Source: Bolinopsis microptera
Lineage: Eukaryota; Ctenophora; Tentaculata; Lobata; Bolinopsidae
NCBI RefSeq assembly: GCF_026151205.1
Contig: NC_087083.1
Span: forward strand, 13,268,944 to 13,328,943
Length of the DNA: 60,000 nt
Direction of reading: 5' to 3'
Part shown: piece after piece, positions 33,741 through 59,094 of the stretch
Numbering within the stretch: position 1 is the stretch's first letter
How the letters are laid out: the number at the start of each line of letters is the position of its first letter
Notes under the pieces: generated by a model
Databases searched by the model: none
What the model was told of the DNA's origin: nothing
What the model saw: the letters and a program-made list of their open reading frames with translations, nothing else
Made by a program: the position numbers and the translations under genes

Positions 33741-34190
33741 ACACTTTTTTGAGTTGAATCCCCTTTCAGATGTGTGTGAAGGGTGTACATGTTAACTTCA
33801 AGGATCAGTATTTGTATCCTACTGGTATAGGCAACTTAACAGCACAGTGTAGTTATTTTGATGTCTCTCCTACTTAAAATACTGGAATGCTGTTCCTAAT
33901 ATCCTAATTGCTAACAAGACCGGATACAACTGAATTGGTTTCTCTAGTTGTCTAGATCCTTGAAAAATTCGTCTTGTACCCCATTATAAAGAAGATACCA
34001 CCAAAAAATTGAGCCCTTTACTAGGTTCAATGTGAATAAATAATTGATGTAGATGCACAATGTGTCTCTGAGAATATTTTTATTACACTTACCAGGAGTA
34101 TTGGTAAAAGAAAATTTAGCATAAATTTCACTGCAAATGTATAATCCTGTTGAATCAGAGTTTTAATTTAGGGGTTGTTCACATATTATG

Positions 34191-34271
34191 GGAGTGTTAT
34201 AAAGTTGTTGTACTCTATAAGTGTATATTCACCTACAAGCATAACTGCTTGGCGTGATGAGGTACATCTTT
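34191..34271. repeat. 81-bp target-site duplication, left copy
   Basis: Identical to 38,053-38,133 at every base (starts ggagtgttataaagttgttg, ends gatgaggtacatcttt). Confidence 0.9.
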
Positions 34272-37200: not shown

Positions 37201-38052
37201 CATCATCATTCGAGTCACATACTCTCTTCCATTCCTTTCTACTCTCTTTCTTCATTTCCCTCAACTGTCTGCACTCAGCATCAAGTCTCGGTTTTTTCTT
37301 CGATGGTATAATGTTTGTTGAACCAACTTCGCATATCAACTCGAGGTAGTCATAGGTGGTGTTCTCAAGTAACTCCAAACCCTTACTAGGGTCGCTGTGT
37401 GTAGTGAACTGGAGACCAATTAGACCGAGGTCTTGATCAATCTTGTCCCACCTAATATCATTGGCCTTAGGTAGTTTTAATCGAGTTTTAATAACTACCG
37501 GTTCTGGTGGATCTGCGTGAGATCTAAAGTTTGCAGACGTAGACGTCCTCCATTTTGCACTGTGGTTTGTATCCTGGCTGGGTTCCGTCTCCGTGTTACC
37601 TCCTTCCTGACCGATAATGCCTACGGCATCCTCTTCCAGGCTCTTGTCCGGTGTCTGCTTACAAAATCTCGCGTGTTTCTTCACGTGCTTAAACCACCTT
37701 TTACACTTATCACACTGTTGGTCGTGTGTGACACTCCGTCCTGTGTTGTTTCCACTATCATCTTGCTGGCTATTAGTTGCTGTGGGTGAAATAGTAGCAG
37801 GGGAGCTGGGGTTCACACCCAAGGGACTTCCCAGTCATTTGTTTTCGTGAGGGTGCCCGACGTAGAAACGTCACCCTCAGTTAGAAGTCAGGTAGGCGCA
37901 GAGTGAGAGGGGAAGTCGTGTCACTCTACTGGCATAACCATCAAACCATACAACTTCCCTTTGACGAGTAAACGCCATATCTCCAAGGAGATTCCAATCC
38001 GTTAATCAATGTGAGGATAACCCTCCTCACTCGGGTCAATTTCCAATCATAA
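34272..38052 (-). mobile_element. RLE-type non-LTR retrotransposon (R2/NeSL/HERO group), nearly full length
   Basis: A 3.78-kb element in minus orientation: a 5'UTR of about 230 bp (37,823-38,052), one long frame (34,391-37,822) and a 3'UTR of about 120 bp. It is bracketed by perfect 81-bp direct repeats. The single-ORF architecture with N-terminal zinc finger, central reverse transcriptase and C-terminal restriction-like endonuclease defines the group. Which clade it belongs to cannot be settled by eye. Confidence 0.85.
34391..37822 (-). pseudogene. ORF of the RLE LINE: zinc finger, reverse transcriptase, restriction-like endonuclease; one nonsense codon
   Basis: The frame of 1,144 codons is uninterrupted except for one TAA at about 36,686-36,688, where TLIP*TDDLKDPGKFR suggests a Lys codon (AAA) changed to TAA. 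Read in order, it shows the zinc finger CDKCKRWFKHVKKHARFC, RT motif A (VIWIDLMNAYGRVPH), motif B (LFQGDPLSVILF), catalytic FADD, a CCHC knuckle CKLCSKQGTLNHILTFC, and the endonuclease core RPDVVIYSDKAKKVYLMELT. Such proteins nick DNA and prime reverse transcription at the nick. No ATG occurs before about residue 190. An in-frame TGA lies directly upstream of the frame, so initiation must be non-AUG or the 5' end is incomplete, a known ambiguity in R2-like elements. Confidence 0.85.
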
Positions 38053-38133
38053 GGAGTGTTATAAAGTTGTTGTACTCTATAAGTGTATATTCACCTACAA
38101 GCATAACTGCTTGGCGTGATGAGGTACATCTTT
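38053..38133. repeat. 81-bp target-site duplication, right copy
   Basis: Perfect partner of 34,191-34,271. Confidence 0.9.
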
Positions 38134-38641
38134 TACTACTTTTTTTATTTGAAAATTCAATTAATTATTATATATATAAATCAAGCGTTACATTTCAGCC
38201 ATGCAAAATTACAATGACATATTTTGATATACTAATTGATAAATGGAACTGCAATATAAGTTGCTTAATGTTTGGCCGGATGACAACTAACTAAAAGAGA
38301 AAAATAAACTTGATTACATAATAATTAATTCGGCTGAATCAACACATAGCAAGAGCCACATTAACGTTGGGGCCGTCTACCAAATTTGAATGACATACAA
38401 TAACAAAAAATCAAACATATCATAAATAATTATATATGGATTTTGTTCATTACAATTCCGTCACAACTGATAGAAGAAAAAAGAATAGGTCAAGCGGATA
38501 GGAAATTGGACGGCAGAATTGTAACCAACAAAAACACATTTCTGAGAATCATAAGACTGATGAGCTAGTCTGGCCAGACTGTACACACTTTATTTTCCAC
38601 TACATTGTAATCAATGCAGCAAAGAGATGATATATTAATGG
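38134..38641. promoter_or_regulatory. Upstream region of the BACE-like gene
   Basis: AT-rich, no coding sequence. The promoter or 5'UTR of the protease must lie in or near this segment. No TATA box or other element can be assigned with confidence. An out-of-frame ATG (38,638) overlaps the start codon region by 4 nt and opens an 18-codon upstream frame. Confidence 0.3.
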
Positions 38642-41600
38642 ATGGCAGTATCGCTCTCCCTCCTCTGTTTTCTACTAACTGTTCACATTGAGTCAGCCAT
38701 CAAACTTCCTCTACGAGGGAGTATTCAAGGTAACTACACTTGCATTCTATAATAATATGTCTCATTGGTTTGTGATTATATCGTTATTTAATTAGAAGTT
38801 CTGTGTTCCCCAAAAACAAAAGTATTTTGTAGAAATAATGCATTGAAAGCATGAACTCATATTTCATATTCAGTTTTGTAACATAATATAATGGGCACAC
38901 ATCGCCATTGTCATCTTAAACATTTATGTTCATACTCTCTAGAACTAAACATTGAATTACACAATAGATCCTGACAACAACAGGGTGTGGAAGAGAGAGA
39001 CAGATGTGCAGGTTACAGGGAGACCCGAACAAGGATACTTCATAGACATATTCCTAGGTCTTATACTAATTAATTAATTTTTATTAAGTTGATGAGGGGG
39101 TTGCGCGTCTTAGTTTGAAATACTCAAATTTTCGATTATGATATTGTGGTTTAAAAGTCTTTCCGCCAAATATTAGCTAAAATGACCATGTTCAAAAATT
39201 TTCAGAAATCAATTTTTATGTGATGCATGATGAGGTAAATTACCTCTAACTTACCTCTAACTTACTTATAATTCAGGAAGTCCTGCCCAGAAGTTTAGTG
39301 TAGTGGTCGACACTGGCAGCTCAAACTTTGCAATTGCGGGGTCTGCTGATGTGGGGATTGATAAATACTTCATCAGTGAACAGTAAGAATTTGTTAAGAT
39401 TTTCAGTTTTATTTAAAAATTCCAATTAAATTGGATGCTGGGGAGGAGTTGACATAAATGTTTTGACACGTGGAAGCAATTAGCTAATTAATTAATTAGC
39501 AATTAGCTGTCCAATCATGTTTGCCAATTTTTGTTGATCTACATAATCTTTAAATTTTTTGCTTATGCAGAACTGGAAAGAGATGTTTAGTTAGAGCATA
39601 GCCGAAACGACAATTGAATTCTATATTTAATTTTATAGTGAGTGGAGGCTCTCATATTGTCCTGAGTTATCACGATTTGCACGATGTTTTTTCCCTTTTA
39701 TTATCATGCATGATCGACCCACAGATCGACAGATCTACATACACAAGACGTAATACTAGGTCTAGGTGCACTGCATTGTCGTTAGTATTATAGCCCATTG
39801 TTGTTTGTGTGCCTGTGTAGAGCGACCTCAGCCAGATGTGATATTCCTGTGTAAATGAAGCATTGGATCTTCCCAGCTTAAAAAGAGCGTACGTCAAGTG
39901 AACTCTTGTTAGATGAAGGTGGCGATGTGAGAGTAATTATACGTACCGTGCAGTGGTTATTGTAAGGAAAGGACCATTATAAAATAGAAACTTCATAAAA
40001 GAAAAATTGTCTATGGGGTTGGACCTATTCATATTCAGTTATTCAGCTTAAAAGACGCATGAGATGTCTATTTAGCATGATACAGTCACGTGGTACAATC
40101 ATGTGGTACAATCAGTCAGCAGCTGTTCTAAGTGTCCAACATCTCGTGTTGTTATGGTAACAAGGAGAGAGACAGAGAGAAGTTATCGCGTTATTGCATG
40201 TTACCTCGAAATAAGGTGTGATAGTTCCCAACATGTATCATATATATATTCCACATTCAATACCATTAAACTATTTTCACAACTACTATTAAATACATTT
40301 ATTGAGGACGTTACAGTCCAGAAGGAATATATTTAATGTAGTTTGAGGAGTCCTCACGTCCGACGCGACAATGGCTTTTCTCTTGTCGCTAATATATACA
40401 GTACCATAATAAATACTATACTACAATACTATATAATATAGTAATATATATGTAATATATACCGTACTAATTTGTATATAATAATCAGTGTATGTGAGGT
40501 TAACAGGTGCACACAGCACAGCTTATATCTGTTTCTTTTGTGAGTACCACTAGATGAGGTGTGTAAGTAATACAGTGACATACACTATACAGTAACATAA
40601 AGTAAGTAATATAGGTATTCTTTTTTACATATATATGTAGTATTAATTACCCGTTACTTATGGTAAGTACAGGTAGAATATTATGAATGTGTAAAACTTA
40701 AGTCCAGTGTGAACAAGTAACTCCTGTACACACAGATTAATAGAAAATAGAAAAAGTTCGTTTTTTGACTACTTCTGTATTAGTTTCGAATATGAGTTTT
40801 GGTTTCGTATAGAATATATTATATAATAATATGGCTGCAAGATACAATTAACAATTTGCTCCTTCATAAAGATATTTGATACAATTTTCGACGTCCCCTA
40901 GCTTGATTCTGTGAGAACAGATGACCTGCGAGTGAAAATTTAGCTAACAAATTAAATAGAGGCGACTTATTACTTTAACAGGCAGGTTCTTTTTAAATTA
41001 TCATGATTCCTAAATGTCAGATCTGAATAAGGTTTATATATTATCCTTGATATCCATGCTGCAGTGAAATTCAAAGATCAATATCAAAGATCTGTATATA
41101 ATGCGTCTGCCATTATAGCCGTTTAACATTATTTAAATTCTATTATTCGCAGTGTGGTATTAATGAATAATGAACAGGTATAATGAATAATGAATAATGA
41201 ATAAATAATGAGTGTCTTAAATCAGTCCTCCATAATTCCATTCTTATTCCGTAATGATTTGGAGCTACATGCATAGATAACCCGTAAATTATTCTGATAT
41301 AATTATCTTACTTTGATATTAATTATACTGGTAATGCAAATGTGTAACACAGAACTCTAAATTTAACAAGTGGTGCTAATTTGAATCCCATGATAATCGG
41401 AAAATCAATGATCTAACATGACAAATGAAATTCTTATCGCATGAGTTTAACCATGAATAAGTACAGCCGTCTGATTATTGTAATGATTGCATTTATTGCC
41501 ACACTAAGATGCAATGTATAATCATGATGTTAATAGCGCTGACAGTGGCACCAGTAACCAGTGGCGCCAGTAACCAGTGGCGCCAGTAACCAGTGGCGCC

Positions 41601-44600
41601 AGTAACCAGTGGCGCCAGTAACCAGTGGTGCCAGTAACCAGTGGCGCCAGTTACCAGTTGTAGGTGAAATTAAGGAGGAAGTGGGAGGTTTCAGGGGTGC
41701 ACAACGACGACGCGCCGATTAATATTTACTTATCGAGATGGATGCTTACATATCGAGTTTCTAAATACAGTAAAACATCGCCTATCTGCATCATCTCCAA
41801 TTGTTTTATGGGTGGCTCTTGAAACTGAAATTATTCACATGACAGCTCTCATAATTTTAATAGCTTATTTTCCAATATTTCAGGTCTACTTCATTCAAAG
41901 GAAGTCCTGATAAAAGTATAAAAGTTCAGTACTTTAATGGCACTTGGCAGGGATACTTCGCTAGTGATATCTTTATGTTCTGTGAAACCTGTGAGTATTT
42001 CAATTTGTATAGTAAAACCCCGATTTACCGCAAACCCCGATTTACCGGAGCCATCTCCTTTCCCCAAATAGGGCTTAACATACACAATGCAATGTAAACA
42101 AAAAACCCCGATTTACTGCAAACCCCGATTTGATGATTCATCATAATATAAATGTATGTGTTGTGACACAACGTTACATTATGACAGCAAATTAGAAAGG
42201 ATCTAGATATCGACTAACGATTACTATTACTTTCAGCTTTTATACATGTATAAATTGTATATAAGCGTTAAACTAATTTAGCTTCATCGCGGTAGATATA
42301 TAATATGCAATATGCAATACATTGTACTGTTTACGACTTGCAGTATTCATCATCTTAAAAACGATAGATTCTTATATTCTTCTGATTAGTCCGATTAACT
42401 TTGCTATATCCCAATTAATAACTCTAAATTATCTCTAACTTACCTCTAACTTACCTCTAACTTACCTCTAACTTACCTCTAAATTACCTCTAACTTACCT
42501 CTAACTTACCTCTAACTTACCTCTAACTTACCTCTAACTTACCTCTAAATTACCTCTAACTTACCTCTAACTTATCTCTAACTTACCTCTAAATTATCTC
42601 TAACTTACCTCTAAATTACTTTTAACTTACCTCTAAATTACTTTTAACTTACCTCTAACTTACCTCTAACTTACCTCTAGATTACCTCTAACTTATCTCT
42701 AACTTATCTCTAACTTACCTCTAACTTATCTCTAACTTACCTCTAAATTACCTCTAACTTATCTCTAACTTACCTCTAACTTACCTCTAAATTACCTCTA
42801 ACTTACCTCTAACTTACCTCTAAATTACCTCTAACTTACCTCTAACTTACCTCTAACTTATCTCTAACTTACCTCTAACTTATCTCTAACTTACCTCTAA
42901 ATTACCTCTAACTTATCTCTAACTTACCTCTAACTTATCTCTAACTTACCTCTAACTTACCTCTAAATTACCTCTAACTAACCTCCCATTATCTCAGGTG
43001 GTAGTGGCAGTGTCGATGTCGCTCTGATAACATCTTCCTCCAACTTCTTTGTTTCGCCTACATTATGGCAGGGAATTCTGGGTCTCGGCTACAAAAGACT
43101 CATGCAGGTACCCGTTTACTAGGTATAAATACCTTATAAGTACCTTATAGGTGGTACCTTATAGGTGGTACCTTATAGGTGGTACCTTATAGGTACCTTA
43201 TAGGTGGTACCTTATAGGTACCTTATAGGTGGTACCTTATAGGTGGTACCTTATAGGTACCTTATAGGTGGTACCTTATAGGTACCTTATAGGTGGTACC
43301 TTATAGGCACCTTATAAGTACCTTATAAGTACCTTATAAGTACCTCATAACTCCTACATCTTATACCACCACTTCCCACAATCTACACAATACCTTTTAG
43401 CCATTTCCCCATTGCTTCACAGAAGAACACACTGTGTGTCCCGACACTGTTAAGTGTTACCCCTAAATCACACCCCTAAATTACACATTACTGTTACCCC
43501 TAAATTACACAGTAAACCACTTAGACAGGCCCAGTTACCAGGCCACGGCATACTTGTTATCCAGCCAAATGTGGTAACGAGGGGTTGAGAGTATTGTTCG
43601 ATACTCAGGGTATTTGAATAATTCAAACACACGTGTATGGGGACCTTGTTAGTACATAGTTACTGTGCTCGTTCACAGTTATACAGTTGCAAGCTACTCC
43701 CCATATAATCACGTGACTATATTTCAGCCTGAGCCGAGTACAGCTGATACCGTACTAGACAGTCTGTCTGCTAAAGGTGCAGTGAGCCAAGTGTTCAGTA
43801 TTGAGCTATGTGGACGAAGAGACCAGAACACTACAAAACTTGACGGGTTACTCGTTAGTAATTGTTGTACTTTTCTTACTGTTAAACCTTTTACCCTAGT
43901 ACGTCATGATGTCGTTTCTTTCTTTTATTCCATTGTTGTATTGTAAATGTACTATTTATATAAAAGTTTCAAATCAAATCTTTATCAAAAATCATCACGT
44001 ATTAGCAGTTATTTTTCCAGGGCTGTTTTTGGCAAAATTTCCTAATTATTTTAAGATGTGGCGAGAGACATCCAACGAGTATCTACTCTAAAAGGGAAAA
44101 TTGATTCCTTAGTTTTATCATGTTCTTGAAGTGATGACATAACTAATGAGAATGATTATAATATGATAATGATTTTAATGAACCATGAGAATTATAAAAC
44201 ATAACTGATCATGTATCCTTTAAAGGTAAGTACTATAGGTACATACTATAGGTACATACTAGGTACATACTATAGGTACATACTCTATAGGTACATACTA
44301 TAGGTACATACTATAGGTTCATACTGGGTACATACTATAGGTACATAATAGGTACATACTATAGGTACATACTATAGGTACATACTATAGGTTCATACTG
44401 GGTACATACTATAGGTACATACTAGGTACATACTAGGTACATGCTCCATATATTTTTGTAGCGACTCTACAGCTGACTATTGTAACTATTGTAACAGTGC
44501 CCCATTACAATAGTTAACTGCAGAGTGCACACTTAATGGCCCATTAAACCACAGAACGGTTAAAATGACCTGTAAATGACCTGTTAATTGCCACTTTCCC

Positions 44601-47600
44601 AATGGCCAAGTGACACCAAGTTCAATATAAGTGTACAGATTCGTAACCATACTGGAAACTTCTGGAATCTGGGGTTTATATAATAATAAGTTAAAATCGT
44701 TCTGATTGACTCGTTTATTATTATTGAATCTCATGATTTGATGTTTCTTTCATTCAAATTTCTGATTGTCTCTAAATATAATCAGTGAAGACAGATTCTA
44801 ATAGAAATAAAAAGCTGAATAATGTATCGACATTTCTAAGACTAAGTCATACTCATATACTCAATAAATGTATTTAATTGTAGTTGTGAAAACAGTTTAA
44901 AACTATCGTTCTGTAGCATTAAATATAGGTTCTGTAGCATTAAATATAGGAAAATTATGACCTTATAGTCTTCTGTAAAGGCTGCGATCACCTTCACATT
45001 ACAGCTTTGCAGCTTGCATGCCTAGTATTGGTATTTTCACCATATCGAGACTGAAAAGGTGTAGGAGAACACCTACTCCAAGATGGCATCTGATACATTA
45101 TTATTATTATAAAACAGGATCTTACAGACAAAAATGATTCATGAAAATACCCTAATGTGGTAAACTGTACCCTTGAAACAGATTTTCCCAACATCTGTTG
45201 CATGCAGATATATCTTTGATTTCGTTTAATTCATGCAATATATGATACGAATACAAATAATTTCAGGAATTAAATGCTACAGCAGATGAAAGTTACCAGT
45301 ACACAGATCTGGTTAGGGAGTGGTATTATCAGATAGAACTAACTGATCTCACTGTTAACGGAACTGCAATTGTTGAGGAGTGCTTTGAGGTACTAAATTA
45401 TTAAGATATTTGGATCTTAAAGTGCTGTTATTAAAGCTTAATTTATTGCTGTTATAAAATGTTGAAAAGACCTAAATATCTGCAATGCGCTAGAATCTAT
45501 ATAAAGTAAGAGTTTAGACCGATCATGCTACGTGTTAGTTTTAAATGATATGCAAATTTCAAGACGGGGCAGTGCCACAATATACCAAGAAAACACCCCC
45601 GAGTTGGACTTTCCGTTCCGTATCATGTTCCGCGGAACGATATTTGACGAAAGTCGATTATCTCGAGATCTGAATGATAGAATTTCTTTAAACTTTCCAG
45701 ATAGTTACATGGCTATAAGACGGATAATCAGAGCGAGTTTGGGCGAATTTCTATGTGCCAAACTTGAGATATGACTTCAAACACAAGAAAATATCTCAAA
45801 TTGGCGCGTTCTAGCGGAACGCAGGCATATATTTCGAGATCTAAATGATAGAATTTTTTAAACTTTCCAGATAGTTACATGGCTATAAGACGGATAATCA
45901 GAGCGAGTTTGGGCGAATTTCTATGTGCCAAACTTGAGATATGACTTCAAACACAGGAAAATATCTCAAATTGGCGCGTTCTAGCGGAACGCAGGCATAT
46001 ATTTCGAGATCTAAATGATAGAATTTCTTTAAACTTTCCAGATAGTTACATGGCTATAAGACGGATAATCAGAGCGAGTTTGGGCGAATTTCTATGTGCC
46101 AAACTTGAGATATGACTTCAAACACAAGAAAATATCTCAAATTGGAGCATTCTAGCGGAACGCAGGCATATATTTCGAGATCTGAATGATAGAATTTCTT
46201 TAAACTTTCCAGATAGTTACATGGCTATAAGACGGATAATCAGAGCGAGTTTGGGCGAATTTCTATGTGCCAAACTTGAGATATGACTTCAAACACAAGA
46301 AAATATCTCAAATTGGCGTCTTCTAGCGGAACGCAGGCATATATTTCGAGATCTGAATGATAGAATTTCTTTAAACTTTCCAGATAGTTACATGGCTATA
46401 AAACGGATAATCTGAGTGAGTTTGGGCGAGTTTCTATGTGCCAAACTTGAGATATGACTTCAAACACAAGAAAATATCTCAAATTGGCGCGTTCTAGCGG
46501 AACGCAGGCATATATTTCGAGATCTGAATGATAGAATTTCTTTAAACTTTCCAGATAGTTACATGGCTATAAGACGGATAATCAGAGCGAGTTTGGGCGA
46601 ATTTCTATGTGCCAAACTTGAGATATGACTTCAAACACAAGAAAATATCTCAAATTGGAGCATTCTAGCAGAACGCAGGCATATATTTCGAGATCTGAAT
46701 GATAGAATTTCTTTAAACTTTCCAGATAGTTACATAGCTATAAGACGGATGATCTGAGCGAGTTTGGGCGAATTTCTATGTGCCAAACTTGAGATATGAC
46801 TTCAAACACAGGAAAATATCTCAAATTGGCGCGTTCTAGCGGAACGCAGGCATATATTTCGAGATCTAAATGATAGAATTTCTTTAAACTTTCCAGATAG
46901 TTACATGGCTATAAGACGGATAATCAGAGCGAGTTTGGGCGAATTTCTATGTGCCAAACTTGAGATATGACTTCAAACACAAGAAAATATCTCAAATTGG
47001 AGCATTCTAGCAGAACGCAGGCATATATTTCGAGATCTGAATGATAGAATTTCTTTAAACTTTCCAGATAGTTACATAGCTATAAGACGGATGATCTGAG
47101 CGAGGTTGGGCGAATTTCTATGTGCCAAACTTGAGATATGACTTCAAACACATGAAAATATCTCAAATTGGCGCGTTCTAGCGGAACGCAGGCAAATATT
47201 TCGAGATCTGAATGATAGAATTTCTTTAAACTTTCCAGATTGTTACATGGCTATAAGACGGATAATCTGAGCGAGTTTGGGCGAATTTCTATGTGCCAAA
47301 CTTGAGATATGACTTCAAACACAAGAAAATATCTCAAATTGGCGCGTCCTCATCAGTCGTCCTCCTCCACCTCCTTCTCCTCCTTCTCCTCCTCCTCCTC
47401 ATCCTCCTTAGTCCTCCTCCTCCTCAGTCCTTCTCCTCCTCCTCTTCCCCCCCTGTCCCTCCTCCCCCTCATCCCATCCTCCTCCTCCTCCTCAGTCCTT
47501 ATTTTCCTCCTCAGTTCTAATCCTCGGTTCTCCTTATCCTCATCTTCCTCCTCCTTCTGGGTCCCCCTGAGTCCTCCTCCTCCTGAGTCCCCCTGAGTCC

Positions 47601-50600
47601 TCCTCCTCCTGAGTCTCCCTGAGTCCTCCTCCTCCTGAGTCTTCATCCTCCTCCTGAGCCTTCCTCCTCCTGAGTCCTTCTCCTGAGTCCACCTCCTCAT
47701 GGGTCCTCTTCCTCCTCCACCTCCTCCTCCACCTCCTCGTCTTGAGTCCTCATCCTCCTCCTGAGTTTTCCTCCTCCTGAGTCCTTCTCCTCCTGAGTCC
47801 ACCTCCACCTGAGTCCTCTTCCTCCTCCTCCTCTTCCTCCTCCACCTCTTCCTCCTGAGTCCTCCTCCTCCTGAGTCCTCATCCTCCTCCTGAGTCTTCC
47901 TCCTCATGAGTCCTCCTCCTGAGTCCACCTCCTCCTGAGTCCTTTTCCTCCTCCAACTCCTCCTCCTCTTCCTCAGTCCTCTTCATCCTCATCCTCCTCC
48001 TCCTGAGTCCTCCTCCTGAGTCCCCCTGAGTCCTCCTCCTCCTGAGTCCCCCTGAGTCCTCCTCCTCCTGAGTCTTCATCCTCCTCCAGAGCCTTCCTCC
48101 TCCTGAGTCCTTCTCCTGAGTCTACCTCCTCCTGGGTCCTCTTCCTCCTCCACCTCCTCCTCCTCCTCTTCCTCTTCCTCCTCTAGTCCACCTCCTCCTG
48201 AGTCCACCTCCTCCTGGGTCCTCTTCCTCCTCCACCTCCTCCTCCTCCTCTTCCTCCTCCACCTCCTCGTCTTGAGTCCTCATCTTCCTCCTGAGTTTTC
48301 CTCCTCCTGAGTCCTTTCCTCCTGAGTCCACCTCCACCTGAGTCCTCTTCCTCCTCCTCCTCTTCCTCCTCCACCTCTTCCTCCTGAGTCCTCCTCCTCC
48401 TGAGTCCTCATCCTCCTCCTGAGTCTTCCTCCTCATGAGTCCTCCTCCTGAGTCCACCTCCTCCTGAGTCCTTTTCCTCCTCCAACTCCTCCTCTTCCTC
48501 CTCCTCCTCTTCCCCATTCATATCTCAATTTTGGCACATAGAAATTCGCCCAAACTCGCTCAGATTATCCGTCTTATAGCCATGTAACTATCCGGAAAGT
48601 TTAAAGAAATTCTATCATTCAGATCTCGAGATATATGACTTTTTTCCGCTAGAAATCGCCAATTTGGAGATATTTTCTTGCGTTTGAAGTCACATCTCAA
48701 ATTTGGCACATAGAAACTCGCCCAAAATCGCACAGATTATCCGTCTTATAGCCATCTGGAAAGTTTTAAGGAAATTTCTCATTCAGATATCTAAATATAG
48801 GCCTGTGTTCCACTAGAAACCCCCAATATGAAGATATTTTCTTGTGTTTGAAGTCATATCTCCATTTTGGCATATAGAAATTCTCCCAAACTCTCACACA
48901 TTATCTGTCATATAGCCATCTAACTATCTGGAAAGTTTAAAGAAAATATAACATTCAGATCTTGAGAAAATCAAAAATATATTCTAAGTTATTCACTAAA
49001 ACACTCGATTTTCGAACTTTTTATTTGGAACAGATTTGTCGAAAGTCCTTCTGACACCCCCTGGATGAATGTCATATCTGGAACGCGCAAGCAAGCCACA
49101 CATAAGAAAACTGGCGCGCGCAATTCGATCTGATCGATCTACATGCGCTGCATGCATGCATGCATGGTCGATCTTAGCTTGCTTGAATTGAATTGCATGA
49201 TATCCAGCTGATGATATTTATAACGATATTCAGCTTGTACGATATTATAGATTCGCTCTGAGCTCTCTATAACTGTACAGTCCCTAAAAATATGAAATGC
49301 ATAAATATTGAAAATATGTCTAATCATCATTATTATCCAATAACAATAATACATACATTATGCATGCACCAATTTTATAATCTCACGGCCACAAATTTGA
49401 TAAAATTAACACTCAATATTTGCAGCTAAACAAACCGCATGCGATACTAGACAGCGGCACAACTAATCTTCTCCTGCCAACAGTTGTGTATTTCAAGGTC
49501 CTGGCGGCTATTGAGTCATTTTCGTACATCGCAGCTAATGGTTCGAAGGTGGGATATGGAGAACATTTGTAAAAAAATCTAGAATTCAAATAGGGAGGGA
49601 TTGTTTTTGTGTTATTTTGTTTTCAAATAAAAAGCGCGAGATTAGCATGACTTCATATGTATTAAAATATATTCTAATTTCTACTCAACATCAGAATGGA
49701 GTGACTCACGCTGACATTAACAAATTCATTGTACGAGAGAATTTCCTTTGCAAAGAGGACCTACAGTCTGTCATATTCACGTGGTTCCCAGAAATTGTGG
49801 TGAACGTAGCTTACAATAAGACTCACCAGTTCGCGGTCAATATCCCACCACAGGTTTCCTTTTCACCACTTTTCACCACGCCCAACCTTAATTTATTACG
49901 AGATTTATTTAAATTCGAGTGTATGCACTCTCATCCCCTAAGTTGATAGGGGTCCTGGTGTTTTGTAAATATTGTTGATTAATTGGTAAAAACCACCAGA
50001 GCTAAATTGATCTTGTTTTCAGCAATACGTCAGACAAACTATGGACAGTATCAACAAACAGGGGCAGATGAGTGATAAAACTAAGTGCTATATGTAAGAA
50101 GATCAGTATTTTTATACTACTGAGATATTTTTTATATCTCTGTGAAATATCAAAGTTTAAAAGTATAAGTTATCTCCATACATACATTGAACGTTCTGCT
50201 CATTTTGCTCCAGGGCAGAGAGTTCAAATCCGCTCTGGGGCTATAATATCAGAACCTATCTCAAAACTTAACATTTTCTACAAAATAATACAGGAAATAA
50301 TATCTTTGAATAATGAATACAGAAAGTGCCCGAAAGTGGTCTTACGATCTAAAACATTCACAACTCACACTTATTCCTGTGCAGGTTTGGAGTGCAGAAG
50401 AGTGAAGCTGGTACGATACTGGGTGCAGCTTTTCTAGAACGACTTACTGTTCTGCACGACAGAATTACCGGAAGAGTAGGGTTCAAGATAGCTACCAGTT
50501 GTCAGGGTGAGTTTAACCAAAAAGAGAGCTGTATTCTAGTCACGTGATACTAGCTAACCAATAAGAGAGCTGTATTCTAGTCACGTGATACTTGCTAACC

Positions 50601-53600
50601 AATAAGAGAGCTGTATTCTAGTCACGTGATACTAGCTAACCAATAAGAGAGCTGTATTCTAGTCACGTGATACTTGCTAACCAATAAGAGAGCTGCAATA
50701 GTGACAACCTCGTAATTTAAAAATGAATGTTGAAGGGGTTAAATTAAATTGTTTCGAAAATCTGTGAGGAATTCTTTATTATATGTCCTCATCTTTTTCA
50801 GTTTCGGATCCAGTGTTCGAAAAGACCATGTCAGGTCCTAATTTGAGAACCGACGAAGGTAATTTCAATAAAAAGTTTCGATTTTGAAATTTCAAAATGC
50901 CAGCTTAATGCAGTTTTATTATAGCTATTATAGCTATAATAGCTAGTACACTGTGTGTGTACTAAGTACACACTTTGATACTAGCTAGATTTAGAGTACA
51001 AACGATAGCTGCTACACTTCGCTTGTATCGTGCTATGTTGCAGTTGTGTTCATCGGGCCTGGGTAGCTCCTTTACATGATATGTATCAAAGAGCCAAAAT
51101 GCTAAACAGAGCAGTCCATGAAAATACATCTTCCCAAATTAAAAAACTAATGGTTATTATAATTACCACAGGGGGGGGTCCACGTTAAAAAAGTTAAATT
51201 CTAAGATCGAGATTTTGGAATTTAACATTAATTACTTTAACTTTTTTAACTTTTTTAACATAAATTAAAAATCAGATTTTGGCTGACTAATCGGTTCAAA
51301 TTTTAACATAATTACCCAAATTAAACTCAATTATGAGTGTTGACCTTTAGTACTAGTAGTACCTCGCTCTTGCAATTGTTTTCTGTAGTTGTAACTGATT
51401 TGATAACTCTACAAAAAAAACAGCTTGTATTTATATAAACACATAATTGTATAATTTACTAATATAATCATTCATATAATACGAAAAAAGAATATGGCTT
51501 GGCTGTGTAAGTGCGGAAGGGTTATGGAAAGTCTCACATACGACAGATGTTTACGTTGCAATTTAGCGAAGGCATCAGGAGAGTCGCTCATTCGCTTGAA
51601 GGGTTCCTGTAGCTGTAATCCCTGTACCCGAACCATCTACTGAGGACACATCATCAGGTATTGATACTCCGGAGCTTCCTCCAGCTGTAATCCCTGTACC
51701 CGAACCATCTACTGAGGACGTATCAGTTGTTGTCAACACTTCAAAAAGGGCTGCTGATTCATCAAAACCTAGAACTCAATATGATTCTGAAGACGAATCA
51801 TCTGCTGATGTTATCACTACTGCGATAATAACAAGCAACTCATTCAAGAGGAGAGCTGTCCCTACTTTTAGGATTCCAAAGATTAAGAAACCGACGGTGC
51901 AAAGCAAATTGACGATTATGGATAAATCTTCATCGACGGGTCTGAAGAAGAAGGAGCATTTGCGGGCTAACACTGATAATTTAACCACGAGAACTCCCAC
52001 AGTAGACAATTCTAAATTCACAATTGGACGACCAATTGATGTTGATAAGATAAACAGCAGCAAGAAAGTGTTAAATTCAAAGAAAGAAACAGCACTTAAC
52101 AAGTTGTCTACACGACTCATTGAAGGTGGAACTGCAATCAAGAATGAGAATCAGCAGGGAAATCGGGACAAATTGAACTCTAGAAATACTCCTCCAACAA
52201 GTTCTCTGAGTACAATTAGACTGCCAGTACACGATGGAAAAGGTGATAAGCCTGTGATTGCGAAGAAAGAGACTGTTTTAAACAAACTTTCTACAAGATT
52301 CGCCACAGAAGATGGCACTTCCACGCCGAAAAACAAACTTTGTAAGGAGAAATCCGGAAGAAAGGCGCTCGATGCCGAAACGATTAAAGATAGATGCACG
52401 GTCAGGACGAATTTTGAAATTGAATTGTGGAAGTGTAACGACATGGTACCTGGCCAGATTATCAAGGCCAAAGCAATTCAACAGGTTTTATTCAGACTTG
52501 GGTGTTCTTTAGAGGAAGCTTGCCTACAGAATATATACAATATTTTCGGAGGAAAAAAATCCAGGTGTCCTACGTTATCAATTGTGCGATCCATGGAGCG
52601 GGTATTAAGACTAAAATCTAAGAAAAGACGTCGTCGGATGATGAGTATTTTACCTACCCCGGAATGTCAGAATGGAACAAAGAGTACAGATGATGTGGTG
52701 CAGAATACTGTGCATCAGCCATGCCCAATAGCTAGAGTGAAACCAATCTTGTCATCGGAAACTATTCAATCTATTCCAAAAATACAAGGAAAGCTGTCTA
52801 CTAATTATGTCCATGCAAATGTGACAGGGAAGCATTCTTTTGCCTTTATTTCCCACATTGCGGTAATGCTAGAGTTAACTAGATCACTAGGTCCAAGCAA
52901 TTTGAAAAGTTGTGACGATGAGGAACTTGTGCATAGATCGTTGAATGAAATAAAAAATAATCAGGATTCAAAGAAATATCTAAATGTAATTGATAGCGCG
53001 GAAGATATTGAAAATGAAGTCCCTGAAGTCTTAAAGCAGGTAAAGAACCTATTGGGGTGTGTGAAAGTGAAACAACCAGATCGAAGTTCTGTTTCAAAAC
53101 ATAGATGCTCTCATAATCTAAAGAGCCATTTAGCCAGTTATATAATATAATAACATCTATAAACAAAAGAGCACCTAAAGAGGCTCAGCAAAGTGCTGGC
53201 CTATTTACGCTTACGAAGACTCATTCGTTCAATATGTCTCAAAGTAAATAAAATCCTCCATCCTACTCTATCTCTTGCTAAGTTCACTAAGTTGGTAAAA
53301 TCATCTTCATTTTTTAAATAAATTTGTCTCTTAAATAGGTCCTTTTTCACAATAATATCATACAAATTAGTCCTGTGTCTACCCACTCGTCCCTTTAGTG
53401 TTTGACATCCTAGTGTAGCAAATAACAGAGACTGGTAGGCAGGTGTGTTGTTGTCACTGCAACTGCGTAGAACATGACCTAGCATTGTCCACCGTGCCTT
53501 TTCCACTCTCTCGGAAAGGGGCCTGGTCTGGGTACGAGCGTAGAGGGCCTTGTTAGATATTGAGCTAGGCCAATATATGTGTAGGATGTTAGGATGCGCT

Positions 53601-56573
53601 TGAGGTGCTTCCTCTGAAGAACATCTACAGACTCTAGAACATGCTGAGGTACGGCCCAGCAGCAGCAGTTGTACAGGAACACTGATACTACTAGTGAGTT
53701 GTAGAGTTTGATCTTTCTCTTCTCAGTTATCTGACTCCTCTCTGATCCCTGGCACCACAGCTTGTCAAATGACCAGAAGGCAGAGTTAGCTTTATTTATT
53801 CTATTAGTAACATCCTGCTCTGATCCAAGCTTAGTACCAAGAAGCGTCTCGTTTCTCCACTCCTCTTTTCCTCTTAGTTCATTATCCCACTCGTCACAGG
53901 CACCAACTTCTTCTAAATACACTCTGGTAAACTTTGTCTTTGTGTCATTGACAAAGAGACTCCATTCACTGAGAATATTCTTGGAGATCTGAAAGATATC
54001 CTGTAACTCCTCCATATCTTCACCAATCTCCTCTAAATCGTCTGAATAGCCGGACTCAAGAGGCATGTGGTTATCGGCTATCGGAGGGTTGGGTCTTGAG
54101 GGGAGGACTGCTCTTATGTGCACTACAGCTCCAGCTAGATTGAGGGTAAACAATTTACCAGCTGTGCTGTCTCCTTGGGAGGCTCCTATGTTGAAAGAGA
54201 ACATCTCTGAGTCAGTAGAACACACTCTGACTACTAGAGTGGTGTTAGCCATGAGGTATTGTACAAGCCTCAGGTCGTCTCTGGAGCATCCTGCAGCTTC
54301 TGATTGTTGTACCTCTGCGGATGGTATTGAAGGCAGCTGACATGTCGATACTCACTTTGTTCCATTCAAACTCCTTCTTCATTACTACAGATATGAGCAT
54401 GCTCTGTGCCCAAACTAGGTCGGCACAGCTCCTGCCAGCTTTGTAGGCAGCTTGGAACGGTCCGGTGAAGTTGTCCACAGCTCTCTCTATTCTGTTTAGC
54501 ACTATCAGTGACAGGATCTTTCTAGAAACATTCAGCAGGGTCAATTGCAATGGTCGTGATCGACTTAACTGGGCCACGAGTTTTACCAGGCTTAGCCAGT
54601 GGTGTGAGGATGCCTGCTCCTATTGCTTCAATGTGAATGTTTTTCTCGAAAGACTCGTTGAACACATTAGCCAGCTCTTCATGAAGGAGGGGGTTGTTCA
54701 GGGCTTTCATGACCTCGCCAGCAACTTTATCAATACCCACTGCTTTACCAGACTTGAGTTTACTGATGGCTCTCTCTATCTCTGCAACGGTGATGGGACT
54801 GTTAAGGCTAGATGGGGGGTCAAGGAAGGCAGGAAGGGTAGGCTCATCATGGCGTCGTTGAACTCAGCTTCAAAGTACTCCTTAATAATCCTCGCTTTCT
54901 CCTCATTAGTACCTGCGATATTCCCAGCAGGGTTGTGGACGGTTAGAGCTGGTCTAACATATCCTTTGGCGAGTATCTTAGAGGCTCCAAAGTATCTCCG
55001 GGCGTCGTCTGTGTTATTTACCTTTTCGACGAGTGTGTCAGCACTGCGGTTGTTGATATCTCTGAGTCTCTTTCTGGTTGATGTTGGTCTTGACATGCTT
55101 CCTGTTGGTCGGGAATTTGTTCTGCATATTCGCAATCATCAGCTGCTTGCGTTCAAGTGACAGTTCAGCGATCTCAGGATCAGTACTGAAGGATTTGTGC
55201 TTTTTTTAGCCAGTTGTTTGGCCATAAGAGGTAGCCTCCCTAGTCTTGGGATATCAGGAATGTCCGAGGAAGAGATTATTGAGGAACATCTATTTTCATT
55301 ACTGAATAATGATGTATGTCGTGATATAATGAAGATTCCTCAACCGTATGATGTTAATCGTATTACAAGTGAAGTTCTAAAATATATGAACGACGATAAG
55401 GACTCTGCTGCACTATAGTGAAAATTATTTTAATGATAGACTTTTATATTCAGGTTAAATGATATAAGTAACTTCAAATTAGACCCTCAAGTTCTTTTAT
55501 TTACGTTATTACAGTAACACCTGTAAAATTTTTACTTCATTGACACTGTTTTTTAATTTTGTAATATAATATATTGACAAATTGTTTGAGCGATAACTTT
55601 TACATTGAAACATCATTAGACGTGACTCTTTTAAACTTTGTAATATAATATCGTGACAAATTGACTCATTGTTTGAACGATAACTTTTATGAAATATCAT
55701 TAGACACTATTTTAAATTTTGTAATATAATATCGTGACACAGTGACTCTTTGTTTAAGCGATAACTTTTATGAAACATCATTAGAATTTTATTCAGTTAT
55801 TAATTCATTACGATTAGTATCACTAGATTTAATGATATAGATTATCATAGCCCTATTTTTAGTGTTGACACTGTGAATGGAATCTGTTGTTTTTTAAAAA
55901 TTATTTATGAATCAGCTGTTTATATTTCTATGAATTATAATTTATTATTGTAATGATCAAATGTATCAATTATTTATCGGTTGTACCTATGTTATATGAC
56001 TGTTTTACTCTTGTCATGGGCATTCCTATATTCCTACATGTAGTGACTAATGAACAAAAATACCAACGCATGACCTGAAAGTAAACTAGTCTAGAATATT
56101 CACTCCATTGCAATTTCAACCCAAATTTGAATTTATAATAAAAAAGTTAAACTTTCTAAGCCTGAATTTTGAAATTTAACATTAATTAGTTTAACTTTTT
56201 TAACTTTTTTTAACGTGGACCCCCCCCCCCCCCCCTACCACACAAACTTCACCAAATATTACCTTGATGATCTTACAATTACCATGATAACTTCAAAATC
56301 ACCACGACAACCAGCAAATTACCCGGACAACCCGCAGGTTGCCTGCTCCCACCACACTCTGCTTTACCAACAGTCGCGCTCACAGTAACGCTGACGCTTA
56401 TCCTGACCACGCTGTGCTGTATTGCGTGTTGGTGGCACAACGAAGCGCTAAAAGCGCAGCTTGCGGCACTGTGTCTGACTCAGAACTACACTTACATGTT
56501 GAACAGTGAGGATGAGGATGAGAGTAGTCTGCAGATGGAACTAGATGAGATCAGGACTGATATTACTCAATGA
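38642..56573 (+). CDS. BACE-like membrane aspartyl protease (beta-secretase family), 13 exons, isoform with short tail
   Basis: Exons: 38642-38729, 38968-39057, 39277-39382, 41884-41990, 42998-43107, 43728-43853, 45267-45389, 49426-49548, 49695-49853, 50023-50093, 50385-50506, 50802-50858 and 56338-56573. Total 1,518 nt, 505 aa, all phases consistent (human BACE1 has 501 aa). It is a single-pass type I endoprotease of the secretory pathway. Seen: signal peptide MAVSLSLLCFLLTVHIESA, catalytic DTGSSNFA (residues 71-78), WQGILGLGY, LVREWYYQI, second catalytic DSGTTNLLLP (259-268), MFGVQKSEAGTILGAAFLER, GRVGFKIATSCQ, a TM segment (about 438-460) and an acidic tail EDEDESSLQMELDE. The six cysteines of the BACE disulfide pattern are all present (LCG, ECF, LCK, KCY, SCQ, and the last in the terminal exon). 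The usual flap-side GGxxxxGG is replaced by LLELNATAD. The start codon was chosen for the signal peptide. Confidence 0.93.
39235..39268. repeat. Three copies of the CTCTAACTTAC repeat before BACE-like exon 3
   Basis: Same 11-mer as the large array in intron 4, here 10 bp before the exon 3 acceptor. Confidence 0.7.
39383..41883. other. Intron 3 of the BACE-like gene
   Basis: AT-rich non-coding DNA without recognised exon. It includes a 16-bp minisatellite (41,543-41,658), and a pogo-like end phrase (acagtaaaacatcgcc) is seen at 41,768. Confidence 0.5.
41543..41658. repeat. 16-bp minisatellite, unit GTGGCGCCAGTAACCA, 7 copies
   Basis: Nearly perfect units, GC-rich against an AT-rich background. 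Confidence 0.9.
42009..42128. mobile_element. Degenerate copy of the ACCCCGATTTACCG repeat element in BACE-like intron 4
   Basis: Contains agtaaaaccccgatttaccg and two more ACCCCGATTTAC phrases, the same family as the elements in introns of copies A-C. The right end is lost or inverted. Confidence 0.5.
42420..42985. repeat. 11-bp minisatellite, unit CTCTAACTTAC, about 50 copies, before BACE-like exon 5
   Basis: Ends about 12 bp before the exon 5 acceptor. Each unit carries CTAAC (branch-point consensus) on the sense strand and AGGTAAGT (donor consensus) on the antisense strand. Confidence 0.95.
43112..43345. repeat. Minisatellite GGTACCTTATA/GGTGGTACCTTATA after BACE-like exon 5
   Basis: Begins within 20 bp of the exon 5 donor (CAG|GTACCC) and repeats AG|GTAC-like motifs about 20 times. 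Confidence 0.9.
44221..44445. repeat. 13-bp minisatellite, unit AGGTACATACTAT, in BACE-like intron 6
   Basis: About 17 units. The first is AAGGTAAGTACTATAGG, a strong donor-like sequence. Confidence 0.9.
45655..47345. repeat. 171-bp satellite, about 10 tandem copies, BACE-like intron 7
   Basis: Units start near cgagatctgaatgatagaat at 45,663, 45,835, 46,005 and so on up to 47,203, with over 90 percent similarity by eye. Part of the unit is open (RDLNDRISLNFPDSYMAIRR) but each ends with a stop. I treat it as non-coding. Confidence 0.9.
47346..48515. repeat. CCT-rich polypyrimidine minisatellite (CTCCTCCTGAGTC units)
   Basis: About 1.17 kb of almost pure C/T on the plus strand, with higher-order repeats (47,640-47,900 resembles 48,060-48,420). 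It is predicted to be able to form H-DNA. Open frames of Arg/Glu/Gly repeats on the minus strand are artefacts. Confidence 0.9.
48516..48990. repeat. Inverted, decayed copies of the 171-bp satellite
   Basis: The sequence ctcaattttggcacatagaa...gtcttatagccatgtaactat is the reverse complement of the 45,655-47,345 unit. About three increasingly divergent copies follow the CCT array. Confidence 0.85.
50511..50695. repeat. 41-bp tandem repeat after BACE-like exon 11
   Basis: Four units of agagagctgtattctagtca then cgtgatactagctaaccaat. Relatives of the motif (accaatcagagag...tagtcacgtgg) recur at 56,573-56,660 and 56,890. Confidence 0.9.
51494..55418 (+). pseudogene. Transposon-borne ORF of unknown function, broken by a frameshift and a LINE insertion
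   Basis: The N terminus MAWLCKCGRVMESLTYDRC with CxC...CxxC (CLRC) looks like a zinc ribbon. After a one-base shift near 51,600-51,610 the frame continues with two repeats of AVIPVPEPSTED and a long Lys/Ser/Thr-rich region containing two KKETxLNKLSTR motifs. A more ordered segment follows (NFEIELWKCNDMVPGQIIKA, VLFRLGCSLEEACLQNIY), then basic KSKKRRRRMM. At 53,139 a LINE interrupts the frame, which resumes in phase at 55,216 (SCLAIRGSLPSL) and stops at 55,416-55,418 after VLKYMNDDKDSAAL. Length without the insert is about 620 codons. I see no DDE triad and recognise no family. It could be a highly derived transposase, an accessory DNA-binding protein or a captured host gene. Confidence 0.6.
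53140..55204 (-). mobile_element. 5'-truncated, frameshifted LINE nested in the TIR transposon
   Basis: Minus-strand frames give RT pieces in order: RRYFGASKILAKGYVRP, then GIDKVAGEVMKALNNP, then motif A (VSIDMSAAFNTIRR), motif B (IGASQGDSTAGKLFTLNLAG), motif C YSDD, and the C-terminal RWTMLGHVLRSCSDNNTPA. At least four frame changes make it dead. The target-site duplication TTTAGCCAGTT lies at 53,129-53,139 and 55,205-55,215. The 3' end is the AT-rich tail near 53,140-53,160. Confidence 0.85.
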
Positions 56574-56941
56574 ACCAATCAGAGAGTGTTTTCTAGTCAC
56601 GTGGTTAAAATCCGACCAATCAGAGAACTGTATTTCAGTCCCTTGATTGAAATCTGACCAATCACTAATGGTGCACTTTGAACTGTATTTCGTTTCTCTT
56701 AAATCAAATAACAGAGACCACAGAACATTTTATTTTTCTATTTTGACATAAAATAATCAAACACCCCACAAACACATTCCTTACTTCCCCACCTAGTCAC
56801 CATCACCACCACTTACTCTGCCAGTCAAAACGCTGCCTGCTGGCTCAACGGCTAAAGATGTCAACCGGCTGTCCTTTTAATTCATACCAACCAATCAGAG
56901 AGCTTTATGAAGTAGACTCGTGACACAAACTAACCAATCAG

Positions 56942-59094
56942 GTGCGTCGTCCTGTCTGGAGTCAGGTGAAGCCCCCGCATGGCTAGTGTCAGTTATCGCC
57001 CTCTCCGTAGGAGCAGCAATCGTGCTGTCTGTAAGTCTTTGGTATTTGTGGAAAAGTCGTCACAATATCTGTAAATGCGGGAGCAAGAGTGAGGAGGGGC
57101 GGGTAACAGAATGCCGCGCAGAGAAACGTGTATCTGTGGCAGCTGTCGGTAATAAGGCACGGAGAATGTCAAATGTGGACAGTGGGAACACTAACAGTAT
57201 TCTTGCGGGGCTGCAAGGAGGGGAGGATGATGTTGGGGGTGGTAGTATGGATGTTATCGAGGAGGATGAGGTGGTTGTTGATGAGGCGAGTGGTGGGCTG
57301 TGTGATGAGATTCCTGATTATGGGGTAAATACTGTAGTGTTGGAGTCTCTAACCGGGCGGGATGTTGAGGGTACTGGAGCTGGTCAGGTTGGAGTGGTTA
57401 ATTCTGATGAAGAAGATATGGGGTATGAGAGTCATGAAACATTAGAGGATCAGAATGATGGGGAGAATGATCATGGTGGTGTTATTGTCAATAAGGATGA
57501 TCAGGAGAATGCAGAAGAGAAGGAAACGGTGGAGGAGGAGCTTGAAAAGGAGGAGGAAGTGAAGGATGTGTCAGAGAAGGAGGAGGATGTGTCAGAGAAG
57601 GAGGAGGATGTTGAGAGTTATGAGGAAACACAGGAGAATGGAGAATCAAATGTAGAAACATTACCGTTAGATCAACAACAGCAAGATCATGATCATGTAA
57701 AAGAACCGGAAGAGATGGGATATGACTCGCAGCAGAACGATCAACAGAAGGAAAATGAAGTGGAATCGGTTGTCAAGGCAGCAGAAGAAAATGAGTTGGA
57801 ATCGGCTACCATGACAACTGAAGAAAACGAGTTGGAATCGGTTGCCAAGGCAGCAGAAGAAAACGAGTTGGAATCGGCTACCATGACAACGGAAGAAAAT
57901 GAGTTGGAATCGGTTACCAAGGCAGCAGAAGAAAATGAGTTGGAATCTGCTACCATGACAACAGAAGAAAATGAGTTGGAATCGGTTACTAAGGCAGCAG
58001 AAGAAAATAAGTTGGAATCGGCTACCATGACAACGGAAGAAAATGAGTTGGAATCGGTTACCAAGGCAGCAGAAGAAAATAAGTTGGAATCGGCTACCAT
58101 GACAACGGAAGAAAATGAGTTGGAATCGGTTACCAAGGCAGCAGAAGAAAATAAGTTGGAATCGGCTACCATGACAACTGAAGAAAACGAGTTGGAATCG
58201 GTTGCCAAGGCAGCAGAAGAAAACGAGTTGGAATCGGCTACCATGACAACGGAAGAAAATGAGTTGGAATCGGTTACCAAGGCAGCAGAAGAAAATGAGT
58301 TGGAATCTGCTACCATGACAACAGAAGAAAATGAGTTGGAATCGGTTACCAAGGCAGCAGAAGAAAATAAGTTGGAATCGGCTACCATGACAACGGAAGA
58401 AAATGAGTTGGAATCGGTTACCAAGGCAGCAGAAGAAAATAAGTTGGAATCGGCTACCATGACAACGGAAGAAAATGAGTTGGAATCGGTTACCAAGGCA
58501 GCAGAAGAAAATGAGTTGGAATCGGCTACCATGACAACGGAAGAAAATGAGTTGGAATCGGTTACCAAGGCAGCAGAAGAAAATGAGTTGGAATCTGCTA
58601 CCATGACAACAGAAGGAAACGAGTTGGGATCGGTTGGCAAGGCAGCAAAAGAAAATGAGTTGGAATCGGCAGCCATAACAACGGAAGAAAATGAGTCAGA
58701 ATCAATTTCTAAAGCAACGGAAGAGAATGCGTTGGAATCGGTAATTATAGAAACAGAAGAGAATGAATTAAAGTCGATAACCATAGAAAGAGGAAGAAAA
58801 GAGTCCAATTCGGAAGAGCGAGCTGTGTTAGCAGCACTAGCTGACTCCGTGAGAGGAACAGAAGACAGCAGTACTGAGGAGTGGGACTCGGACTCCGCGG
58901 AATCCCAGTCAGAGGAGAAATCGAAGTCCATCGAGGACTCTGATTCGGACGACAATACATTTGTGAGAGTTGGTAATAATAGTGATATTGCAACCGAAAA
59001 ATTAGAGTGTGATCTGGATAATGTTGAGGTACAATCACCGAACAACTTCACTGGTGATGAAAATGATGACATACCTATTGATTGGAATGATTGA
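56942..59094 (+). CDS. Alternative terminal exon of the BACE-like protease: TM segment plus long repetitive acidic tail
   Basis: An open frame starting at acceptor CTAACCAATCAG|GTGCG joins exon 12 (GAC GAA G|) in the same phase as the exon at 56,338 and encodes 717 aa. That would give an isoform of about 1,144 aa. It begins GASSCLESGEAPAW and so supplies the sixth BACE cysteine, then a TM segment (WLVSVIALSVGAAIVLSVSL), the stop-transfer residues WKSRHNICKCG, and a very acidic tail. About 12 tandem 24-residue repeats (AEENELESATMTTEENELES then VTKA) run from about 57,760 to 58,620, followed by Ser/Asp/Glu clusters. No in-frame ATG precedes the TM segment, which argues against a separate gene. 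The two exons would be alternative 3' ends. An intron with another upstream start for a second gene cannot be excluded. Confidence 0.7.

Follow-up and report, generated by a model that had tools for sequence, protein, structure and literature searches.

Does one beta-secretase (BACE) gene of the ctenophore Bolinopsis microptera end in either of two last exons that supply different membrane anchors and cytosolic tails? The question is raised by a 60,000-nucleotide (nt) stretch of contig NC_087083.1 (positions 13,268,944 to 13,328,943; the whole stretch is called the window below). Twelve exons on its + strand (38,642-50,858) join into a single open frame corresponding to a BACE-type aspartic protease, and two candidate last exons, A and B, follow. 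The pattern of alternative last exons, with two in-phase ends to one donor and a stop in each, is present at the DNA level. By its features the locus is probably one ctenophore BACE gene that can end in A or in B. From its phase-1 donor at 50,858, exon 12 would be spliced to either A (56,338) or B (56,942), and either last exon would complete the cysteine set, anchor a type-I membrane protein and define its cytosolic part. The features of the two ends are as follows.

56338..56573, + strand: candidate alternative last exon A, with the sixth cysteine (429), a membrane segment, a short acidic tail with YTYM and a stop (TGA)
56370..56435, + strand: membrane segment of exon A, TVALTVTLTLILTTLCCIACWW, with a cysteine at its cytosolic end (sequence and hydropathy)
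56942..59094, + strand: candidate alternative last exon B, with the sixth cysteine (432), a membrane segment, a 680-residue Glu-rich tail and a stop
56977..57051, + strand: membrane segment of exon B, AWLVSVIALSVGAAIVLSVSLWYLW, followed by basic residues (sequence and hydropathy)
57742..58741, + strand: tandem repeat in the exon B tail, unit of 72 nt (24 amino acids, aa), 13.9 copies; a second copy of the locus has 7 units fewer

Two candidate ends of a BACE-family gene

We rebuilt the gene independently from the sequence, with exon boundaries set by GT/AG, frame and the BACE alignment. Exon 12 ends in phase 1 (GAC GAA G|gtaatt, at 50,858), and both 56,338 and 56,942 follow an AG and continue its frame, as an earlier note on this DNA had claimed. 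The acceptor context is ...cccgcag before 56,338, where the frame reads GCLLPP...ITQ and then a stop, and ...aaccaatcag before 56,942, where it reads GASSCLES...WND and then a stop. Isoform A would be 505 aa long and isoform B 1,144 aa. The tail of A counts 47 residues from WWHNE (45 without the two W) and that of B 680 residues from KSRHN, in agreement with the "about 45" and "about 680" proposed earlier.

The tail of A exhibits one YxxPhi-type motif (YTYM), retained in the second copy, and cysteines at the membrane border. The tail of B has a net charge of -155 (-110 in the second copy) and 29 CK2-type sites (17 in the second copy); a scan of it for YxxPhi, [DE]xxxL[LIM], DxxLL and NPxY motifs gave zero matches. 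No Pfam family matches exon B above its cut-off, the best being LapA_dom on the membrane segment (16.2 bits against 28). The 24-aa repeat array of this tail appears more uniform in the window than in the second copy.

The locus is a ctenophore BACE-family gene by its sequence, and its protease activity is predicted. A phmmer search of the PDB with the ectodomain and anchor of isoform B yielded 137 matches (E-value up to 0.001), the best 60 of which are all beta-secretases (top E-value 1.1e-53). An early query with the A anchor, which lacked exon 7, covered exon 2 only in part and carried a wrong residue where exons 10 and 11 meet, yielded 132 matches, the best 60 again being all beta-secretases. 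Judged by the best 60 of 137 and of 132, the protein resembles beta-secretases more than cathepsin D/pepsin-type proteases. It also matches the Pfam family Asp (111.8 bits against a cut-off of 19.9) and exhibits both catalytic motifs, VVDTGSSN in exon 3 and LDSGTTN in exon 8.

In the alignment to beta-secretases, five core cysteines (195, 248, 310, 366 and 407) coincide with BACE cysteines; the last exon provides the remaining one, at 429 with A and at 432 with B. Two additional cysteines (128 and 131) lie outside the BACE set. The pairing pattern is known for BACE1; disulfide pairing in the ctenophore protein is predicted. By hydropathy only, each isoform would have a signal peptide and a single C-terminal membrane segment, with a hydrophobic start in exon 1 and the segments in A and B. 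The BACE identity (PDB, Pfam) and the sixth cysteine and membrane segment of each exon, all put forward in the earlier note, are thereby supported at the level of alignment and hydropathy. The exons upstream of the two ends are the following.

38642..38729, + strand: exon 1, with the start, signal peptide and pro-region (MAVSLSLLCFLLTVHIESAIKLPLRGSIQ); a single substitution in the second copy
38968..39057, + strand: exon 2, pro-region, EQGYFIDIFL
39277..39382, + strand: exon 3, first catalytic motif DTGS
41884..41990, + strand: exon 4
42998..43107, + strand: exon 5
43728..43853, + strand: exon 6, with Cys 195, which opens the BACE set of six cysteines
45267..45389, + strand: exon 7, Cys 248, found by tblastn with BACE fragments
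49426..49548, + strand: exon 8, second catalytic motif DSGT
49695..49853, + strand: exon 9, Cys 310
50023..50093, + strand: exon 10, Cys 366
50385..50506, + strand: exon 11, Cys 407, phase-1 end
50802..50858, + strand: exon 12, 57 nt, phase 1 to phase 1, same sequence in the second copy

The acceptor of exon 2 (38,968) was picked by phase from several candidates and is the least certain boundary. Since exon 12 both begins and ends in phase 1, skipping its 57 nt would keep the frame, and exon 11 is also joinable to A or B. A genome search with the early ectodomain model, lacking exon 7, found 19 matches at E-values up to 10; 18 lie in the two copies of the locus and the remaining one, elsewhere, is weak (E-value 1.8).

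Probable attachment of exon B to the gene

The frame of exon B is open from 56,911, with zero in-frame ATG 5' of the membrane segment, so B requires an upstream exon. The earlier note had named a first exon of B's own as one observation that would count against a shared protease. In the interval between exon 12 and B that was scanned (50,859-56,941), none of the 101 ATGs passes a strict first-exon filter (a signal-like stretch followed by a phase-1 G|GTR donor), a filter that exon 1 passes; in the whole window it is passed at 7 places. When any base is allowed before GTR, two of the 101 pass (54,849 and 55,081), both inside a transposon that is missing from the second copy. A separate first exon for B is unlikely on this sequence evidence, which covers the interval between exon 12 and B.

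The same data bear on the idea that BACE ends in A only and that B closes a different gene or is transcribed by itself from a promoter not seen here. The weak acceptor of B within a repeated motif, the exon 12-B join being a prediction from DNA, and the two ATG frames that a relaxed donor would admit as first exons all favour it. We nevertheless hold it improbable, given the lack of a start before the membrane segment, the failure of all 101 ATGs between exon 12 and B under the strict filter, the location of the relaxed two in a transposon absent from the second copy, and the phase, cysteine position and cysteine spacing of B, which fit BACE.

The alignment of isoform B with BACE2 continues past the exon 12|B junction and reaches the sixth cysteine (..SGPNLRTDEGASSCL against ..SGP-FSTEDVASNCV). 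The stub and membrane segment of B score 44 against a provisional human BACE2 end (p = 0.024, segment-wise shuffles), and exon A scores 41 against the BACE1 end (p = 0.059, segment-wise shuffles). Crosswise comparisons of A and B with the BACE ends are at chance level (p = 0.33 and 0.70).

How often would such an exon appear by chance? We scanned 80 kb, the window plus 20 kb beyond it, for AGs opening a phase-1 frame with a cysteine before a hydrophobic segment, a filter designed with A and B in view. On the + strand, 16 of 4,393 AGs pass, A and B included, and the other 14 cluster at 8 places; the - strand has 5 passing AGs among 4,700. Two such places within 0.7 kb, at about one per 10 kb, would have a chance of 1% or less, as a rough estimate. 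The retention of both frames between two diverged copies, with in-frame insertions and deletions and an excess of synonymous change, given below, is the stronger support. No further last exon with such a frame lies downstream of B on the + strand of the 80 kb.

Two possible origins of the exons were considered and rejected. The first 199 aa of exon B match only the two copies of the locus at E-values up to 10, which speaks against a mobile or duplicated exon, and the similarity of A to B is at the level of shuffled sequences (p = 0.33), which speaks against duplication of one from the other. At E-values up to 10, exon A has two weak genome matches (E-value 0.24 and 8.6) besides those in the two copies.

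A second copy, selection and the splice signals

The same contig holds an inverted, diverged copy of this neighbourhood, colinear over the fetched stretches at 14.904-14.988 Mb, with large insertions and deletions. Identity is 83-99% in the blocks listed and 91-98% within the gene once tandem repeats are set aside. Close to this copy the assembly has a gap of 100 N (14,906,569). Innexin pairs on contigs C1 and C7 are likewise doubled with equal scores, each on one contig (18 innexin matches in the assembly), which suggests that the second copy is as likely to be an unpurged allelic contig as a duplication.

Both A and B are present in the second copy, with order, phase and frame retained. Exon A is longer there by 12 nt, in frame. 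Exon B differs by -6, -21, +3 and +6 nt and by seven 72-nt units fewer, for a net 522 nt; all differences are multiples of three, and the tail is 506 residues long against 680 in the window. We compared nonsynonymous (dN) and synonymous (dS) divergence by the Nei-Gojobori method with Fisher tests for dN < dS; two copies of one genome give these tests little power. The ratio dN/dS is 0.11 for exons 1-12 (13 synonymous, 5 nonsynonymous changes, p = 8e-6), 0.07 for exon A (4 synonymous, 1 nonsynonymous, p = 0.012) and 0.33 for exon B outside the repeats (11 synonymous, 14 nonsynonymous, p = 0.010). These values make it well supported that A and B are conserved coding sequence under selection, the repeats of B and the region after them excepted.

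The low ratio in exon A also bears on the notion that B is the true protease end and A a little-used or decaying exon. Such a notion would accord with an acceptor of A that is weaker than that of B, and with a likeness of B to the human BACE2 end slightly better than that of A to the end of BACE1. The lowest dN/dS of the three parts and a 12-nt insertion that keeps the frame are not what a decaying exon would be expected to exhibit, and we consider this very unlikely.

Several observations weigh against two alternative last exons. With acceptor and donor models built from 11 and 12 sites of this gene (its own acceptors range from -3.9 to 14.7, leave-one-out), the acceptor of A scores 0.28, above 1 of the gene's own 11 and at the 79th percentile of AGs in the window; that of B scores 2.05, above 2 of the 11 and at the 87th percentile. 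The acceptor of B lies within the second of two adjacent copies of a repeated ACCAATCAG motif; the motif occurs again 3' of exon A and, in the form ACCAATAAG, within intron 11. Neither AATAAA nor ATTAAA occurs between A and B or in the 806 bases 3' of B, and the poly(A) hexamers scanned gave variants only, the sole one after exon A being CATAAA at 56,747. Within exon B, dN < dS is not significant for the part after the repeats (p = 0.37) or for the last four repeats (p = 0.51). Exon B resembles the BACE2 end modestly; this is one of five comparisons, made with a provisional reference sequence, and is suggestive only. The choice between the two exons is predicted from genomic DNA, as is the use of both junctions. 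The earlier claim of one protease with two ends is thus partly supported, by its phases, cysteines and anchors and by signs of selection; its two junctions, with low-scoring acceptors, are the conjectural part.

One further such point is a donor inside exon A (AACA|GTGAGG at 56,505) in phase with B. Spliced from it, A and B would be consecutive exons and the protein would have both membrane segments; this could occur alongside, or in place of, the use of A as an end. The donor is in phase 1, and its score of 2.3 is within the spread of scores that the other donors of this gene receive (-0.5 to 7.8, leave-one-out). But five more phase-1 GTs lie in A (56,418, 56,427, 56,472, 56,523 and 56,526), so an in-phase GT is not special, and exon A 3' of 56,505 retains its frame and stop in the second copy, with two synonymous and zero amino-acid changes. 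The charges around the B segment (ESGEAP before, KSRHNICK after) would fit an N-out, C-in anchor, whereas a second segment would need the opposite orientation. Consecutive use of A and B is therefore unlikely in our view.

Under the preferred reading of alternative last exons, the balance between isoforms could be set by cleavage and polyadenylation after A versus splicing onto B; the weakness of both the acceptor and the cleavage signals at A would permit splicing to B. Isoform A may be directed to endosomes, and isoform B may be held or scaffolded by its long tail. We lean somewhat towards one gene giving rise to two membrane proteases, with a common catalytic ectodomain and a different sixth cysteine, anchor and tail, one of the tails being acidic, repeat-bearing and 506 to 680 residues long depending on the copy.

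Known BACE proteins and the genomic surroundings

Alternative last exons that swap anchors or tails are a general mechanism, in which one upstream donor serves two ends with their own stops. The Bolinopsis locus differs from the general case in that each exon also contributes to the catalytic ectodomain a cysteine at one of its disulfide positions. An anchor and tail swap that leaves the cysteine set complete would show one BACE gene serving two compartments or partners. If true, it would amount to two-way BACE sorting by exon choice in one gene, and to a natural test of BACE tail function, in a lineage whose BACE is taken to be no closer to BACE1 than to BACE2 and no closer to BACE2 than to BACE1.

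BACE1, BACE2 and the BACE1/2 of the ctenophore Mnemiopsis (PMC11117577) resemble the Bolinopsis protein in signal peptide, DTGS/DSGT motifs, six cysteines and C-terminal membrane segment, and also in the cysteines at the membrane/cytosol border and the acidic tail (that of A). In contrast, two candidate last exons and a 680-residue acidic repeat tail would set the Bolinopsis locus apart. Alternative splicing of BACE itself is known: as described in PMC2647160, the BACE1 variants I-476, I-457 and I-432 lose parts encoded by exon 3 and/or 4, whereas here the ectodomain would be kept and the anchor and tail swapped. The same text describes palmitoylation of the BACE1 tail cysteines and a BACE1 trafficking governed largely by the cytosolic tail (PMC2647160).

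The text available of PMC11117577, PMC3865767 and PMC2647160, within the open-licence literature, describes no alternative membrane anchors for BACE, and the word "splice" is absent from the main text of PMC3865767. The statement in the earlier note that no BACE with such a choice is known agrees with the literature found on early-animal BACE and splicing, though this agreement is a weak sign that none exists. Both BACE in ctenophores and the use of alternative last exons are known already; their combination was not met in the open-licence literature searched. RNA-seq and Iso-Seq of Bolinopsis are described in PMC10232365.

Human APP is reportedly not processed by the BACE1/2 of Mnemiopsis (PMC11117577). 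As one construct represents one protein end only, a reading with two tails would bear on that result. The sponge Amphimedon has no BACE, according to PMC3865767 and PMC11117577. Ctenophores thus matter for the early history of the BACE family. Clytia hemisphaerica is a hydrozoan. The abstract of PMC3865767 counts Porifera among BACE holders, and its table marks Clytia hemisphaerica as a sponge and Amphimedon as negative.

Intron 12 consists mostly of a transposon; the second copy lacks it, and its intron 12 is 376 nt long.

51171..56235, no strand assigned: transposon in intron 12, 5,065 bp, with inverted ends of a G run followed by TCCACGTTAAAAAAGTTAAA (by eye) and TACCACA flanks

A 1.65-kb piece of this transposon has 34 genome matches including itself, 33 of them at 97-100% identity, on contigs C1-C8 and C11-C13; these 33 near-identical matches indicate that it moved recently. 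Its 516-aa frame exhibits no Pfam match at an E-value of 0.1, and a frame on its reverse strand exhibits a sub-threshold RVT_1 match (18.5 bits). Intron 7 contains a 171-bp tandem array of 9.9 copies, followed by a 1.1-kb TCC-rich low-complexity stretch (together 45659-47347). Just upstream of the BACE gene, long retroelement-like frames were seen by eye on the minus strand (34391-37834); the second copy is without the stretch from about 34,190 to 38,580.

A sponge as the source of the assembly was considered and rejected: innexins, which sponges are not known to have, are present, and the photoprotein genes described next match berovin and mnemiopsin best, so the genome is that of a ctenophore. 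A COX1 search of the assembly gave zero matches. Elsewhere in the assembly, an aequorin probe gave 55 matches to photoprotein-like genes, scattered and partial ones included, most being nearly full-length in one frame and most lying in tandem clusters. Tandem arrays of these genes with about 1 kb spacing are located at 22.00 Mb on C1, 3.4 Mb on C3, 17.01 Mb on C5 and 11.08 Mb on C13. The two photoprotein-like genes tested match berovin and mnemiopsin 1 best (E-value 1e-121 to 1e-124).

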